Positions 57,510 through 64,000 of a DNA stretch of 64,000 nucleotides are shown one piece after another. Both the position numbers and the translations under genes were made by a program. The DNA comes from Opitutia bacterium (GTDB lineage Bacteria; Verrucomicrobiota; Verrucomicrobiia; Opitutales; Opitutaceae): NCBI GenBank assembly GCA_016217545.1, contig JACRHT010000016.1, positions 124,001 to 188,000 of the forward strand, written 5' to 3'. Under the pieces are notes generated by a model. The model had not been told where the DNA came from. It ran no database searches and was given only the letters and a program-made list of their open reading frames with translations. Every line of letters starts with the position of its first letter. Within the stretch, counting starts at the first letter, position 1.

Positions 57510-58748
57510 ATGAAGCAAACCCGCATCGTCATCACCGGAGTCGGCCTCACCGCGCCGAACGGCAATACGTTGGCCGAGTTTCGCCAGAACCTGCTGAAAG
57601 GCATTTCCGGCATCACGACCGTCGACGTCCGCTACATGGGACGCTGGCCGGCGGGCATGTGCACGTTCGACCCTCTGAAATATCAGAAGAAAAAGGACGT
57701 CCGCATCGGCACCCGCGCGGGCAGCATCAGCGTGTATTGCGCGCGCGAGGCGCTCGCCGATGCCGGCGTGAACGTTGAAACGCGCGACAAGAGCCGGATT
57801 GGCATCTACGTCGGCATCACCGAGCACGGCAACGTCGAGACCGAAAACGAGGTCTACAACATCTCGCAGTTCAAATACGACACGAAGTTCTGGACGCACC
57901 ACCACAACCCGCGGACCGTCGCCAACAACCCGGCGGGCGAGGTATCGCTCAATCTCGGCATCACCGGTCCCGCCTACACGATCGGCGCCGCTTGCGCGGC
58001 CGGCAACATGGGCCTGATCCACGCCGCGCAGATGCTGCGCCTCGGCGAAGTCGATTTCGCCATCGCCGGCGGCATCAGTGAGAGTCCGCAGACCTTCGGC
58101 ATCTTTGCTGGTTTCAAGAGTCAAAACGCCCTCGCGGCCCACGCCGACCCGACTAAGGCCAGCCGGCCGTTCGACAAGGCGCGCAACGGCATCGTCATTT
58201 CCGAAGGCGGCTGCCTCTACACGATCGAACGCCTCGAGGACGCGCAGGCGCGCGGCGCGAAGATTTACGGCGAGATCGCGGGCTACTGCGTCAACTCCGA
58301 CGCGACCGACTACGTGTTGCCCAACCCCGAGCGTCAGGCCGAGTGCGTCCGCAAGGCCCTCGCCAACGCCGGCATGACCGTCGACGACATCGACATCGTA
58401 AACACGCACGCCACCTCGACGCCCCAAGGCGACATCCAGGAGTGTCAGGCGATCGCCGCCGTGTTCAAGGACCGCAAGGAACCCGTCGCGATCAACAACA
58501 CGAAGAGCTTCATCGGCCACTGCATGGGCGCGGCCGGCGCGTTGGAGCTGGCGGGCAACTTGCCCAGCTTCGACGACCTCGTGGTTCACCCAACGATTAA
58601 CGTCGATGAGCTTGATCCCCAGTGCGATATCCCGGGCCTCGTGCTCAACCAACCGCGCTCGGTTAAACGGGTTGACGCCATCCTGAATAATTCCTTCGGT
58701 ATGCTCGGAATTAATTCCACGCTGATCATCAAGCGATTTACTGCCTGA
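57510..58748 (+). CDS. FabF-type beta-ketoacyl-ACP synthase of a dedicated lipid cluster
   Basis: 412 residues. The catalytic Cys is at 162 (GAACAAGNMGL), His at 300 (NTHATSTPQGD), Lys 332 and His 337 (TKSFIGHCMGAAG), so the C-H-H triad of condensing ketosynthases is intact. The sequence around the Cys is shorter and less canonical than in primary FabF (no TACAT), which fits a specialised paralogue. ATG 57510 starts MKQTRIVITGVGLTAPNG. It is the first gene of a run of seven, all on the plus strand. Confidence 0.93.
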   Translation: MKQTRIVITGVGLTAPNGNTLAEFRQNLLKGISGITTVDVRYMGRWPAGMCTFDPLKYQKKKDVRIGTRAGSISVYCAREALADAGVNVETRDKSRIGIYVGITEHGNVETENEVYNISQFKYDTKFWTHHHNPRTVANNPAGEVSLNLGITGPAYTIGAACAAGNMGLIHAAQMLRLGEVDFAIAGGISESPQTFGIFAGFKSQNALAAHADPTKASRPFDKARNGIVISEGGCLYTIERLEDAQARGAKIYGEIAGYCVNSDATDYVLPNPERQAECVRKALANAGMTVDDIDIVNTHATSTPQGDIQECQAIAAVFKDRKEPVAINNTKSFIGHCMGAAGALELAGNLPSFDDLVVHPTINVDELDPQCDIPGLVLNQPRSVKRVDAILNNSFGMLGINSTLIIKRFTA

Positions 58749-58765
58749 CCTCACCTCCGCACACC

Positions 58766-59020
58766 ATGACGAAAGACGCCTGCAAGAAGCTGGTTATCGA
58801 CATCATCTCCGACATCGCCCCCGACGAAGATCTCTCGGCCATCAAGCCGGACGTCCGTCTGCGCGACCAGCTCCAGCTCGATTCCATGGACTTCCTCGAC
58901 ATCGTCATGGAGCTCCGCAAGCGCCACGGCATCGAGGTCCCCGAAGCCGACTACATGCAGCTCGCCTCGCTCGACAGCTGCGCCGAATACCTGACGCCGA
59001 AGTTCCAAGCCAAGGGCTGA
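58766..59020 (+). CDS. Acyl carrier protein
   Basis: 84 residues, all helical and acidic. The phosphopantetheine attachment Ser lies in QLDSMDFLDIV (DSM instead of the usual DSL). It begins 17 bases after the ketosynthase stop. The presence of its own carrier protein implies a separate assembly line rather than primary fatty-acid synthesis. Confidence 0.94.
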   Translation: MTKDACKKLVIDIISDIAPDEDLSAIKPDVRLRDQLQLDSMDFLDIVMELRKRHGIEVPEADYMQLASLDSCAEYLTPKFQAKG

Positions 59021-59046
59021 ACCGGAACCCGACGAACACGCGAGAG

Positions 59047-59077
59047 TAGGGGCGCAGCTTGCTGCGCCCTTTGTTTT
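59047..59077 (+). terminator. Hairpin with T-rich tail between ACP and CrtI-like genes (REP-like)
   Basis: A GTAG head (59047-59050) precedes a stem GGGCGCAGC/GCTGCGCCC with a tiny loop, then TTTGTTTTA. The same GTAG-stem design occurs in the REPs of this window, so it may be either a REP copy or a partial terminator inside the operon. If it terminates, expression of the later genes would be lowered. Confidence 0.55.
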
Positions 59078-59097
59078 ATCCGGATCGCGACGGGCAG

Positions 59098-60534
59098 ATG
59101 CACACCTCCAGCCACTACGACGCAGTCATCATCGGCGCCGGCATGTCCGGCCTCGCCGCCGGCATCCGTCTCGCGCACTTCGGCAAGAAAGTCTGCATCT
59201 TCGAACGCCACAACGCCCCCGGCGGGCTCAATGGTTTCTACAGCATCGCCGGCCGGAAGTTCGACGTCGGCCTGCACGCGATGACCAACTTCGTGCCGCC
59301 CGGCGTCAAAGGCACGCCGCTCACGAAGCTCCTCCGCCAGCTCCGCATCGACCGCGACGAGTTCGCGCTCTGCCCGCAAAAGCAATCAAAGATCGCCTTC
59401 GGCCCGCGCGGCGAAACGGCGCTGCGTTTCACCAACGACTTTGCCGTGCTCGACGCCGAGGTGCGCGAGAAATTCCCGCACGAAGCCGAAGGCTGGAGCC
59501 GCCTCGTCCAACTCGTCCGCACCTACGACGACGTGTCGCTCGACGCCCAGCCGCGCTCGGCGCGCGAAGTCGTCGCCCAGCACCTCCGCGACCCACTGCT
59601 CACCGACATGATCTTCTGCCCGGTGATGTATTACGGCAGCGCGCAGGAGCGGGACATGGAGTTCGGCCAGTTCGTGATCATGTTCAAGGCGCTCTACCTC
59701 GAAGGCTTCGCCCGGCCGCTCGATGGCGTGCGCGTGATCATCCGCGTGCTGCTCGAGAAATTCCGCCAAGCCGGCGGCGAGCGCCGCATGAAGTGCGGCG
59801 TCGCCCGCATCGTCGAGCGCGACGGACGCGCCGCTACGCTCATCCTCGACGACGGCTCGGAGATCACCGCCGACCACGTCATCTCGTCAGCCGGCTTCGC
59901 CGAGACAATGCGTCTGTGCGAGCCGGCCCGCACCGCCGAGGCGGCCGCAAACACCGGCCAGCTTTCTTACGCGGAAACGATTTCCGTTTTTCAATCCGCG
60001 CCGGCGACGTGGGGTTGGGGCGCCGACACGATCATCTTTTTCAATGACTCGCCGCGCTTCGCCTACGAGCGCGCGAGCGAGCCTGTGGACCTCCGCAGCG
60101 GCGTCATCTGTTTCCCGAACAACTTCGCGTATCCCGACGGTGCCGACCTGCCCGAGGGCCTCGTCCGCGTCACCTGCCTCGCGAACTTTGACCGGTGGGC
60201 AAACCTCCCCGAGGAAGCCTACCAAGCCGGGAAACGCCGCTGGTTCGACGCCATCCAGCGCAGCGCGCGGCGTTTCCTGCCGCCGGTGGACGACGCGGCG
60301 CTCGCCGCGCAACTCGTCACCACCGACATGTTCACGCCGCGCACAGTGAAAAAGTTCACCGGCCACCTGAACGGCGCGATCTACGGCGCGCCGCAAAAGA
60401 TCCGCGACGGCCGCACACACCTGCGCAACCTCTACCTTTGCGGCACCGACCAGGGATTCCTTGGCATCATCGGTGCCATGCTCAGCGGAATCTCCATGGC
60501 CAACTACCACGTGCTGCAGGGGAGCGCGAAATAG
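59098..60534 (+). CDS. CrtI/phytoene-desaturase-like FAD oxidoreductase, copy 1
   Basis: 478 residues. FAD-binding [19 protein letters not shown] at the N-terminus, and the C-terminal FAD segment [20 protein letters not shown] typical of the CrtI family. Members desaturate or isomerise polyenes and lipid chains. The start [16 protein letters not shown] at 59098 fits; the first base of the ORF is upstream. It is 78 bases after the ACP stop. Homology to copy 2 is limited outside the FAD-binding parts, so the two likely act on different substrates or steps. Confidence 0.9.
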
Positions 60535-60611
60535 CGCCGCCTTCCGCCGGGCGCTTGCCTCAACTTCCCGGTTGCCCTGCCTCCGCGCGCACTCTTACTT
60601 GGGCCGCTTTC

Positions 60612-62051
60612 ATGGCCTACGACTGGCTCAAAGGAACCCACGATCACTACGACGTCATCGTCATCGGCAGCGGCCTCGGCGGCTTGACCGGCGCCAATGT
60701 GCTGGCCAAGTGCGGCCACAAGGTCCTGCTGCTCGAGCACCACTACCAACTCGGCGGCCTCGCGACGTGGTTCACCCGCAAAGGCGGACACATCTTCGAC
60801 ATCTCGCTGCACGGTTTCCCGCACGGCATGATCAAGTCCTGCCGCAAGTATTGGAGCCAGGACATCGCCGACGCCATCGTTCAGCTCAAAGGCGTGCGGT
60901 TCATCAACCCGCAGTTCCAGATCGACACGACGTTCGACCGCGACGACTTCACGCGCCAACTGATCGAGACGTTCAAGATCCCCGCCGAGACGGTGGAGCG
61001 TTTCTTCACCGACCTGCGCGCGATGAACTTCTACGACAACTCGACCGAGACCACCGGCGAGATGTTCGAGCGCTACTTCCCGGGCCGCGACGACGTGAAG
61101 CGACTCCTCATGGAGCCGATCGCCTACGCCAACGGCTCCACGATGAACGACCCCGCGATCACGTTCGGCATCGTGTTCTCGAATTTCATGAGCAAGGGCG
61201 TCTTCACGTTCCAAGGCGGCACGAACGTCCTGATCAAGCGCATGGCCGAGGAGCTGAAGAAGAACGGCGTGGAAATCCGCAAGCACGTCCTCGTCGAGAA
61301 AATCCTCACCGAGGAAGTCGACGGCCGAAAGCGCGTCTGCGGTGTCGTCGCCAACGGCAAAACCATCCGCTGCGGCGCCGTGCTCTCGAACTCGAACGTC
61401 AAGAACACCGTGCTGCGCATGGCGGGCGAGGAGAACTTCACACCCGAGTTCGTCGCCGCCACCAAAGCCGTGCGCGTGAACAGCAGCTCGTGCCAGGTCT
61501 ACCTCGGCATCAAGAAAGGCGAGACGCTGCCGCACATCGGCGACCTCGTGTTCACGTCCGACGAGCCGAAATTCTCGAGCGAAGCGCTCGTCGGCCTGCA
61601 CACGACGAGCCGGACGTTCTCGATGTATTACCCTGACACCCGTCCCGGCACCGACCGCTACACCGTCGTCGTGTCGATCAACGCGAAGTATCAGGACTGG
61701 GCCGCCCTGTCGGACGACGACTACGCGAAGCACAAGGAGCGCCTCATCGAGGAATCGATCACGTCGCTCGAGCGCTTCATCCCGGACATTCGCGGCAAGA
61801 TCGAGTGGAAGGAAGCCGCGACGCCGCGCACCGTCGAATACTACACGAAGCACTGGCACGGCACGTCGTTCGGCACGAAGTTCGAGGGCCTGAAAATCTC
61901 GATGGACCTGCCGACGCAGCTGCCCGGTCTCTACCACGCCGGCTCAGTCGGCATCATCATGTCGGGCTGGCTCGGCACGATTAACTACGGCGTGATCGTG
62001 GCCAACCAGATCGACAAGGCCCTCGCCGCCGCGAAGCGCACCGCCGCCTGA
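60612..62051 (+). CDS. CrtI/phytoene-desaturase-like FAD oxidoreductase, copy 2
   Basis: 479 residues. FAD-binding [20 protein letters not shown] near the N-terminus; [20 protein letters not shown] at the C-terminus is the family end. Between them a long substrate region with an acidic/basic mix ([20 protein letters not shown] is typical). It starts [14 protein letters not shown] at 60612, 78 bases after copy 1. Two different CrtI-like proteins with a ketosynthase and an ACP are the mark of the cluster type discussed in the findings. Confidence 0.92.
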
Positions 62052-62058
62052 TTTCCCC

Positions 62059-62511
62059 GTGAACGAAGTCGAGCAACTCATCCCGCACCGTCCGCCGTTT
62101 CTGTTCGTCGACGCCATCGTGTCCCACGACGGAGAGACCATCGTCACGCGCCGCACTTGGCGCGCCGAGGAGGATTTCTACAAAGGCCACTATCCGGGCG
62201 CACCGATCACACCGGGCGTGCTGCTCAGCGAAGCCGTCTTTCAATCCGGCGCCTGTCTCATGGCCAAACTCATGGCGGGCTCGGCCGGGCAGGGCGGCGG
62301 CGTTCCTTTGCTCACCAAGGTTTCGGACATCCGTTTCCGTCTGCCGGTTTACCCGGGCGACACCGTGACGATCGAAGTGAAGCGCAAGGAGACCGCCGGC
62401 GAGTTTCATTTCCTCACCGGCCTCATGAAATCTGCGGACGGCAAGAAGATCATGAACGTCGATTTCGCCGTCGCGTGGAAGAAACCCGAAGGCCAGGTCA
62501 CCACGGCATGA
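62059..62511 (+). CDS. FabZ-type 3-hydroxyacyl-ACP dehydratase
   Basis: 150 residues, hot-dog fold. The catalytic His is at 44 (GHYPGAPITPGV) and the Glu at 58 (LLSEAV). It starts at GTG 62059, seven bases after the copy 2 stop. The stop overlaps the start of the next gene by four bases (ATGA). FabZ-like enzymes dehydrate 3-hydroxyacyl chains to trans-2-enoyl chains; this one has the unusual PITPGV variant of the common PIMPGV. Confidence 0.92.
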   Translation: MNEVEQLIPHRPPFLFVDAIVSHDGETIVTRRTWRAEEDFYKGHYPGAPITPGVLLSEAVFQSGACLMAKLMAGSAGQGGGVPLLTKVSDIRFRLPVYPGDTVTIEVKRKETAGEFHFLTGLMKSADGKKIMNVDFAVAWKKPEGQVTTA

Positions 62512-63329
62512 GCGATTTCCTCCAAGTCGCGGGCAAAACGTTCCTCGTCCAAGGCGTTGCCAACAAGAAGAGCGTCGCGTGGTTGATCGCGAAATCGCTG
62601 GAAGAGCAGGGGGCGCGCGTCGTCTACGCGGTGCGCTCCGAGGCGCGCAGGAAATCCCTCGAAGCCCTGCTCGCCGACCGCCCGGTCTTCGTCTGCGACG
62701 TCGAACAGGAGGGCGCGGGCGAGAAACTTGCCGCCGATGTCGCCGCCGCCGGCTTCGCGCCGCTGCACGGCTTGGTTCACTCGATCGCATTCGCGAACTA
62801 CAGCGAAGGGTTCAAGACGTTCGCCGAGACGAAGCGCGGCGACTTCCTGCAGGCGACCGCCATCTCCGCCTTCTCGCTCGTCGAGCTGACGCGCGCCTTC
62901 AAGCCGCACCTCGCGCGCGACGCCTCCGTCGTGACCATCGGCATTTCCTCGCTGCTCGTGACACCCGACAACTACGGCTACATGGGCCCGATCAAAGCCG
63001 CGCTGGAATCCTGCGCGCGTTTCCTCGCCAAGTCGCTCAGCGCCGACACCGCCATCCGCGTCAACGTCCTTGGCAGCGGTCCGCTTAAAACGAGCGCTTC
63101 GGCTGGCATTCCCGGTTATCTCGAAAGCTATCTCTACGCGGAGAAAATGACCTTCCGCAAACGCGCGCTCGAGACGCAGGAGGTCGCCAACGCCGCGCTC
63201 TTTCTCCTCAGCCCGCGCAGCAGTGGCGTGAACGGCACGACGCTGGTCGTGGACGGCGGCCTTGGCTCGAACTACTTCGACAAGGACATCATCCACCTCG
63301 CCATGCGGCCGGAGGCACCGAAAGCATGA
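62508..63329 (+). CDS. FabI-type enoyl-ACP reductase-like SDR
   Basis: 273 residues. NAD-binding [16 protein letters not shown] (the FabI type, not a classical GxxxGxG), catalytic Tyr156 and Lys163 in [14 protein letters not shown] with the FabI spacing Y-x6-K, and [20 protein letters not shown]. The neighbouring active-site Tyr146 of E. coli FabI appears to be Ile here. It reduces, or at least binds, an enoyl-ACP; with the changed residue its substrate may differ from that of primary FabI. It overlaps the FabZ gene by four bases. Confidence 0.88.
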
Positions 63330-63349
63330 ACCGAGCGCGGCCGCAACAT

Positions 63350-63400
63350 GTAGGAGCCTGCTTGCAGGCGACCACAAATTATCGCCTGCAAGCCGACTCC
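63350..63400. repeat. GTAG-headed REP-like inverted repeat
   Basis: Arms GTAGGAGCCTGCTTGCAGG (63350 on) and a complement ending GCCGACTCC, with a 12-base centre CACAAATTAT-type. It separates the enoyl reductase and FabH-type genes of the lipid cluster. Confidence 0.75.
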
Positions 63401-63429
63401 TCCGGGCCAAAGGCGCATGCCGCAGCCGC

Positions 63430-64000
63430 ATGAAATTCGCGCACGCCTGCATCGAGTCCATCGCCGCGGTCGAGCCGGGCGAAGTCTGGTCGTCAGCCGC
63501 CATCGAAGCGCAGCTGAAGCCGATGTATGAACGGCTGCGCCTGCCGGAAGGGCGCCTCGAACTCATGTCCGGCATTCGCGAGCGTCGCATGTGGGCCGCC
63601 GGCACGCGGCCTTCCGACGCGAGCGCCGCTGCTGGGCGCAAGCTGCTCGGCATTTCACGAATCCCCGCCGCGAAACTTCAGGTGCTCATGCACAGCGCCG
63701 TGTGCCGCGATATGCTCGAACCGGCGACGGCGACCTTCGTGCACCACAAGATGGGCCTCGGCGGCGGCATGCAGGTTTTCGACGTCTCGAACGCCTGCCT
63801 CGGTTTCCTTAACGGTCTCGTGCTACTCGGCGGCATGATCGACGCCGGCCAGATTCGCGCAGGCATTGTGGTCTCCGGCGAAAACGGACGCCCGCTCGTC
63901 GAGCGCACGATTCAGCACCTGCTCGGCGCCAATCTCGACCGCAACGCGATCAAGCCGTTCTTCGCCAACCTCACCATCGGCTCCGCCGCCGTCGCGGCCG
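63430..64000 (+). CDS. FabH-type beta-ketoacyl-ACP synthase III (partial, runs off the window)
   Basis: 190 residues to the right edge, still open. The catalytic Cys is at 123 ([14 protein letters not shown]), the classic KAS III position and context, and [13 protein letters not shown] is unmistakable. The N-terminus [17 protein letters not shown] is unlike E. coli FabH, closer to long-chain or OleA-like KAS III. It could prime the assembly line or join two chains. The His and Asn of the triad lie beyond the window. Confidence 0.9.

Follow-up and report, generated by a model that had tools for sequence, protein, structure and literature searches.

RESULTS

A lipid elongation gene run that leads into oleA

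The window analyzed here, a 64,000-nucleotide stretch of an Opitutia bacterium (positions 124001-188000 of contig C16 in a 5.09 Mb genome), ends in a run of seven plus-strand genes that probably provides the OleABCD olefin pathway with polyunsaturated acyl chains through a dissociated enzyme set, in place of a type I polyunsaturated fatty acid (PUFA) synthase. The run opens with a ketosynthase gene, KAS (57510-58748), whose product is FabF-like and falls in a separate orthologue group; it scores 324.4 bits against the fabF model TIGR03150, under the cut-off of 493.75. Next come a dedicated acyl carrier protein (ACP) with an LDSMDFLD site (58766-59020; PF00550, 40 bits) and two CrtI-fold flavoproteins, CrtI-1 (59098-60534), a candidate enoyl-ACP isomerase or desaturase, and CrtI-2 (60612-62051). 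A FabZ-type dehydratase gene with a GTG start (62059-62511) encodes the expected His/Glu pair and scores 92.8 bits against NF000582 (cut-off 113) while exceeding the cut-off of PF07977. It overlaps the gene for a FabI-like enoyl-ACP reductase (62508-63329), which reaches 169.5 bits against the FabI model NF006369 (cut-off 370) and 198 bits, above cut-off, against PF13561. From KAS to the seventh gene, the intergenic distances are 17, 77, 77, 7, -4 and 100 bases. The preliminary description of this DNA, drawn up from the sequence alone, was right that all of these frames are genes; the four-base overlaps that it mentioned come down to one.

The seventh gene, previously labeled KAS III, is oleA (NF006720, 426 bits; cut-off 285). 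Its 5' part occupies 63430-64000, and extending the contig to the right, as had been proposed, completed the gene at window position 64467 (L001:8467). An OleB-type alpha/beta hydrolase gene lies just beyond the window, its start overlapping the oleA stop codon by one base. The OleB-type protein (P0008) matched haloalkane dehalogenases, the enzyme type that includes OleB, none above cut-off; its relatives are located between OleA and OleC in Planctomycetota. On contig C12, we found OleC (NF006754, 639.6 bits; cut-off 478) and, adjoining it, an OleD-type gene (3beta-HSD, PF01073, 160.2 bits). With OleA and the OleB-type protein on C16 and OleC and the OleD-type protein on C12, the genome carries a complete OleABCD set, divided between two places.

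Catalytic residues described earlier as intact in KAS, FabZ, the FabI-like protein and the supposed KAS III, together with the ACP site, are invariant among relatives, counted after exclusion of rows with an internal stop, less than 85% coverage or a score below the limit. KAS Cys162/His300/His337 are kept in 62/62 relatives, ACP Ser40 in 59/59, FabZ H44/E58 in 67/67 and FabI-like Tyr156/Lys163 in 71/71. The KAS gate loop reads GMLG, with Met398 invariant in all 62 orthologues, versus GFGG in the housekeeping FabF. Residue 146 of the FabI-like protein is Ile in 71/71 relatives, whereas Escherichia coli FabI has Tyr146. In OleA, Glu97-Pro98, Cys123, His272 and Asn302 are kept in 93/93 relatives, the last three being active-site residues, and the best PDB match is 3row (E 1.5e-57), a Xanthomonas campestris protein. 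A role for the Glu117-Pro motif of OleA has been described (PMC7064751). The OleB-type residues D114/H274 are kept in 65/65 relatives.

The gene set is distinct from primary fatty acid synthesis

The preliminary description regarded the run as a dedicated acyl-ACP elongation set, and this view holds. A canonical fabG-acpP-fabF run, read from translations, lies elsewhere in the same genome, on C17 (L301, 7770-10163), which argues against primary fatty acid synthesis as the function of the window genes, as does the survey of the phylum, in which 141 of the 193 genomes lack a KAS orthologue (E 1e-100). A near-complete elongation set would fit primary synthesis, but we consider this explanation scarcely credible. 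The cluster is instead a dedicated elongation set separate from primary synthesis. The condition under which the preliminary description would have accepted primary synthesis, a genome devoid of further fab genes, does not apply here. The ketoreductase FabG, which had been missed in the run and was thought perhaps to lie to the right, is encoded at the C17 locus, and one relative has FabG within the cluster (see below).

Of the four ketoacyl-synthase matches found in the genome, three fall within frames of 436-444 aa, and the fourth, a weak one, lies in a 581-aa frame. No multidomain type I PUFA synthase (Pfa) was recognized among these frames of at most 581 aa; our search for its marker PfaD covered Planctomycetota only. 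A third, divergent ketosynthase lies on C17 (G000 C17:744957-748255; L302:4957-8255) beside a short-chain dehydrogenase/reductase (SDR) gene and a glycosyltransferase-like gene, as named by eye. This region is perhaps another specialized lipid set.

Two CrtI-fold flavoproteins

Both flavoproteins have their best NCBIfam match in the carotenoid isomerase family TIGR02730 (88.2 bits for CrtI-1, 104 for CrtI-2; cut-off 586.9), and they score 67 and 81.5 bits, respectively, against TIGR02734 (cut-off 238.1), neither reaching the curated cut-off for CrtI/CrtISO carotenoid enzymes. Structure models (pLDDT 88.5 for CrtI-1 and 83.7 for CrtI-2) and PDB fold searches with them confirm a predicted CrtI fold for both, the closest being in each case 4rep, a carotenoid desaturase, with 4dgk (CrtI) ranking high in both lists. 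These searches do not separate isomerase from desaturase because carotenoid desaturases and amine oxidases dominate the match lists. In PADLOC, the sole match was desaturase-like, for CrtI-2 (57.9 bits). A CrtI-like pair beside KAS, ACP and FabZ might also recall carotenoid or aryl-polyene pigment synthesis; given that the carotenoid models are matched far under their cut-offs and that the gene set travels with OleA, we consider pigment synthesis very improbable, although no search was aimed at phytoene synthase or aryl-polyene genes.

The flavoproteins might alternatively be true flavin desaturases that act on the finished acyl-ACP within an otherwise identical pathway. The fold and the rank of 4rep and 4dgk fit this possibility, which has been proposed in print for the clusters of anammox bacteria and Desulfotalea psychrophila (Rattray 2009, PMC2649909), but the same paper regards putting an initial double bond into a saturated lipid as the harder task. 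When tested with lycopene, neither of the Kuenenia CrtI-like proteins behaved like CrtI (PMC4790861), and the best family match of the window proteins, though under cut-off, is to carotenoid isomerases. On this evidence, we regard desaturation of the finished chain as possible, though rather less probable than its contrary.

KAS, CrtI-2 and OleA share a distribution

We surveyed 193 genomes of the window's phylum with at least 90% completeness. In 52 of them, CrtI-2 is present with at least 53% identity (E 7e-164 or better), after which the next match falls to 1e-22, with a match of some kind at E 0.001 in 110 of the 193. KAS, at E 1e-100, is present in exactly the same 52 genomes. CrtI-1 (1e-60) is likewise found in 52 genomes, OleA above cut-off in 53 and OleC above cut-off in 50, of which 51, 51 and 48, respectively, are common with the KAS set. 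Within the same family and order, CrtI-2 and KAS were present in all 33 genomes sampled, one of them only 1.3 Mb. Two genomes of the phylum, G046 and G120, have OleA and OleC with KAS absent (E 1e-100).

Searching genome contigs with the CrtI-2 alignment yielded at least 533 confirmed stretches. The best 80 of these, which we examined, are mostly from Opitutales or Verrucomicrobia and include Geminisphaera colitermitum TAV2, Coraliomargarita, Pelagicoccus and Cerasicoccus. Near CrtI-2 in these best 80 loci, many of them broken by contig ends, lie FabZ in 60 (one at 25% identity), FabI in 56, OleA in 53, OleB in 49, CrtI-1 in 38, and KAS and ACP in 32 each. When whole genomes were searched for 16 of the 27 loci without a nearby OleA and for three loci with one, OleA was found in 19/19, 18 times above cut-off and once split over two contigs. 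A metagenome-assembled genome (MAG) labeled Nitrospirae, a label that may be wrong, carries OleA-OleB-OleC-OleD-KAS-ACP-CrtI1-CrtI2-FabZ-FabI in a single run on one strand within 20 kb (L150 = L225).

All ten genes stand together in Planctomycetota

In the Planctomycetota (244 genomes of at least 85% completeness, from the phylum of the Phycisphaerae MAG G195), KAS was found at E 1e-90 in 58 genomes, at 62-72% identity. OleA was above cut-off in 96 of the 244 and in every one of the 58 with KAS; the two genes share a contig in 37 of the 58 and lie within 10 kb of each other in 26. Among 20 KAS loci fetched from this phylum, seven hold all ten genes, the cluster six and OleABCD, within 20 kb, in two layouts, one with the ole genes in line and one with them divergent. 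A contig or region end breaks several of the remaining loci, and three (L208, L210 and L222) show no OleA nearby. One locus (L219) has a FabG (NF009466, 253.7 bits; cut-off 222) between CrtI-2 and FabZ, indicating that the ketoreductase too can be cluster-encoded. The presence of orthologues of the cluster genes across two phyla excludes a chance arrangement of the seven genes, and the gene neighborhoods thus extend past a single lineage, which the preliminary description had treated as a decisive point. Taken together, these observations indicate that the cluster very probably supplies OleABCD.

The ten-gene loci also bear on the earlier suggestion of a ladderane lipid or precursor cluster like that of anammox bacteria. 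FabF, ACP, FabZ and CrtI-like genes do occur together in both settings (PMC2649909, PMC4790861), but OleABCD accompanies them in the seven Planctomycetota loci, no radical SAM match was present among the 16 neighborhood genes of the window scanned with Pfam, and ladderanes are said to be unique to anammox bacteria (PMC4790861). We therefore judge a ladderane function highly unlikely; of the two products first envisaged, polyunsaturated or polycyclic, the former is the best reading and the ladderane form of the latter is not supported. To the right of the OleB-type gene in the window's own neighborhood are matches to APS kinase, to a PAPS-reductase domain and to a GTPase of the elongation-factor type, read as cysC, cysD and cysN, followed by a signal peptidase and, farther right, an acyltransferase-domain gene read as fabD.

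In three Planctomycetota loci (L207:11845-13044 [+], L209:13774-14928 [+] and L212:1546-2730 [-]), the two halves of fabZ are separated by a long insert that preserves the reading frame, and the gene reads as one open frame of 384-399 aa. The L207 insert matches REP-associated tyrosine transposase NF047646 (68.3 bits; cut-off 80) and Y1_Tnp PF01797 (30.6 bits; cut-off 23), and those of L209 and L212 resemble it by eye.

KAS and PfaD replace each other among OleA genomes

If the cluster supplies PUFA to OleA, then OleA genomes that lack it should carry another supplier, the known one being the Pfa synthase. We searched the same 244 Planctomycetota genomes for PfaD (TIGR02814) as a mark of type I PUFA synthases and found it in 38. 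None of the 58 KAS-bearing genomes has PfaD, and 36 of the 38 OleA genomes without KAS do; in 19 of these 36, no more than 20 kb separates PfaD from OleA. For OleA genomes, the association has a Fisher p of 2e-24, a value inflated by relatedness. This pattern indicates that the cluster substitutes for the type I PUFA synthase.

To place the suppliers on a phylogeny, we used an OleA tree of 103 proteins comprising, from Planctomycetota, 39 of the 58 KAS-linked proteins, all 36 that are PfaD-linked and both misfits (G214 and G336, see below), and also 22 of the 51 KAS-linked proteins from the window's phylum, TAV2, G046, G120 and the Nitrospirae-labeled MAG. Supplier labels require 5 changes on this tree versus a shuffled mean of 33.5, indicating that OleA splits into KAS-linked and Pfa-linked types, largely inherited with their suppliers. 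The OleA proteins of G046 and G120, which come from genomes without KAS, group inside the Pfa-linked clade. That placement predicted a Pfa-type supplier, and a Pfa-like synthase was then seen beside oleA in G046: a 2322-residue protein with PfaA-like ketosynthase domains (594 bits, under the whole-PfaA cut-off of 1010) and FabA-type dehydratase domains in four stretches (233 bits; cut-off 124). In G120, no Pfa-like gene was found in the 19 kb fetched, to which the search was confined.

These observations also bear on whether the line might feed OleA a special chain that is not highly unsaturated (monoenoic, branched or short), leading to another olefin. OleA does use ordinary acyl groups in other bacteria, the chains of Xanthomonas and Stenotrophomonas coming from core fatty acid synthesis. 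The exclusive replacement of PfaD by KAS among OleA genomes, and the Pfa-like synthase with FabA-type domains that adjoins oleA in G046, make such a chain unlikely here.

Observations that run counter to linkage and polyunsaturation

Several findings weigh against the proposal that the cluster makes a polyunsaturated chain for OleA. In the window's phylum, G108 (L232, L233), which belongs to the window's order and is 1.7 Mb in size, has KAS, ACP, CrtI-1, CrtI-2, OleC and OleD and no OleA at E 1e-40; either its OleA has diverged or the acyl product is used otherwise. CrtI-1 was not found in G167 (threshold 1e-60), and four KAS genomes (G145, G155, G170 and G184) lack OleC at 1e-80. A CrtI-1 relative stands alone in G135, at 41% identity (C1:244645-246015, L229), in a genome without KAS, a strong CrtI-2 or OleA. 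We fetched 20 CrtI-2 loci of the phylum, 19 from outside the order plus that of G145, and saw no other cluster gene near CrtI-2 in any of the 20. We also fetched 20 OleA loci from these genomes: OleB is near in nine, FabZ-FabI in one (G145) and KAS-ACP-CrtI-1 in two (L064 and L066), both from a different family of the phylum and both with KAS-ACP-CrtI-1 next to OleA. Beyond the order, the phylum has mostly lost the physical linkage.

In Planctomycetota, G214 and G336 have OleA with neither KAS nor PfaD, and G280 and G418 have PfaD without OleA. Co-inheritance of OleA with its supplier means few independent switches, and the Fisher values overstate the co-occurrence. Five KAS-linked OleA proteins branch beside the Pfa-linked clade, and two others, from the PfaD genome G216 and from G214 (locus L297), group with the KAS-linked proteins, although their branches are long and their placement is unsure. 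The G336 protein (locus L245) has a Pfa-linked OleA as its sister.

As for the product, the acceptance of ordinary acyl groups by OleA elsewhere means that the OleA link alone is no proof of polyunsaturation. FabZ relatives such as FabN can isomerize, which means that the flavoproteins need not do so. Hentriacontanonaene (C31:9) in Planctomycetes favors neither supplier, given that some Planctomycetota carry PfaD and the producers are unspecified. A review states that every C31:9 producer also makes eicosapentaenoic or docosahexaenoic acid; among C31:9 producers it names Geobacter bemidjiensis, which is strictly anaerobic and carries pfa-ole genes (PMC4882568).

DISCUSSION

We propose that KAS, ACP, CrtI-1, CrtI-2, FabZ and the FabI-like protein form a type II synthase that would use its own ACP to assemble a polyunsaturated acyl chain for OleA, which would join two such chains head to head; OleD, OleC and OleB would then convert the OleA product to a long-chain olefin. 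KAS would carry out elongation, housekeeping FabG (whose gene is present) probably ketoreduction, and FabZ dehydration, with the FabI-like protein reducing the enoyl group in cycles that end saturated. The flavoproteins may position the double bond, one by 2-trans to 3-cis and the other by 2-trans to 2-cis isomerization. In PUFA-synthase logic, a methylene-interrupted n-3 chain needs both of these isomerizations: for 16:4n-3, full reduction occurs at C4, C10 and C16, 2-trans to 3-cis isomerization at C6 and C12, and 2-trans to 2-cis isomerization at C8 and C14. One reductase and two candidate isomerases match these needs, which is the ground for our isomerase model, although we consider the question of an isomerase role evenly poised.

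We predict a 16:4n-3 chain and, from two of these, a C31:9 product with 4+4+1 double bonds; a polyunsaturated chain and a product of this type are quite likely, if less firmly indicated than the supply of OleABCD itself. Two 16:4n-3 chains have been predicted to yield C31:9 through OleABCD (PMC4882568; PMC6463001), and in one model OleA draws 16:4n-3 from the ACP domains of PfaA (PMC6463001). In the same paper, pfa genes combined with OleA yielded a polyunsaturated C31 ketone (31:8). The C31:9 producer D. psychrophila also makes C31:8, has CrtI-like genes in its type II fatty acid synthesis (FASII) clusters, with consecutive locus tags DP2405/DP2406, and has no other known PUFA pathway according to PMC2649909. 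That paper proposed CrtI-containing FASII clusters as an anaerobic PUFA route and cites C31:9 in members of Planctomycetes without specifying them; the term "OleA" has 0 occurrences in its text. We found no published tie of CrtI-containing FASII clusters to ole genes among the titles and abstract openings listed, a search that mostly left out subscription papers. The oleABCD genes have been noted before in Opitutae (PMC5673642), as has oleC in bacteria of the Planctomycetes-Verrucomicrobia-Chlamydiae group (PMC10176705).

The cluster offers a six-gene candidate for the origin of the polyunsaturated arms in C31:9 producers without a known PUFA pathway, such as D. psychrophila. C31:9 is reportedly the commonest product of ole bacteria, Verrucomicrobia and Planctomycetes included. 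If our proposal is correct, it would describe a PUFA route that needs neither oxygen nor a giant synthase and that could be useful for engineering, and clusters of like composition now read as ladderane-like would be recast. More tentatively, and with slightly less confidence than doubt, we suggest that this is a third mode of de novo PUFA synthesis, oxygen-independent and dissociated, in which a single FabZ and two CrtISO-like enoyl-ACP isomerases supply C31:9 across much of Verrucomicrobiota and Planctomycetota. Its relatives may make ladderane polyene precursors.

Among known systems, the CrtI-containing FASII clusters of Kuenenia stuttgartiensis and D. psychrophila (PMC2649909), compared by description only, likewise hold FabF-like, ACP, FabZ and CrtI-like genes. 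They also contain radical SAM enzymes and a phenylacetyl-CoA ligase, in contrast to the window's neighborhood, which lacks the former in the 16 genes scanned. The OleABCD pathway of Xanthomonas and others (PMC7064751, PMC6463001) likewise features an OleA with a Glu-Pro motif together with OleB-type, OleC and OleD-type proteins; its chains come from the core pathway, whereas a dedicated supplier stands beside OleA here. A further parallel is with the pfa-oleABCD clusters of Shewanella and Geobacter (cluster types as in Shulse and Allen 2011, PMC3098273), in which a dedicated synthase also co-occurs with ole genes, is often linked to them and is thought to supply OleA; C31:9 is made in G. bemidjiensis and pfa-bearing Shewanella. 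Where those clusters encode multidomain Pfa proteins with FabA-type dehydratase domains, as seen in G046, the present one encodes small separate proteins, with FabZ and two CrtI-like flavoproteins, and a FabI-like SDR in a setting without PfaD (0 of 58 Planctomycetota KAS genomes).

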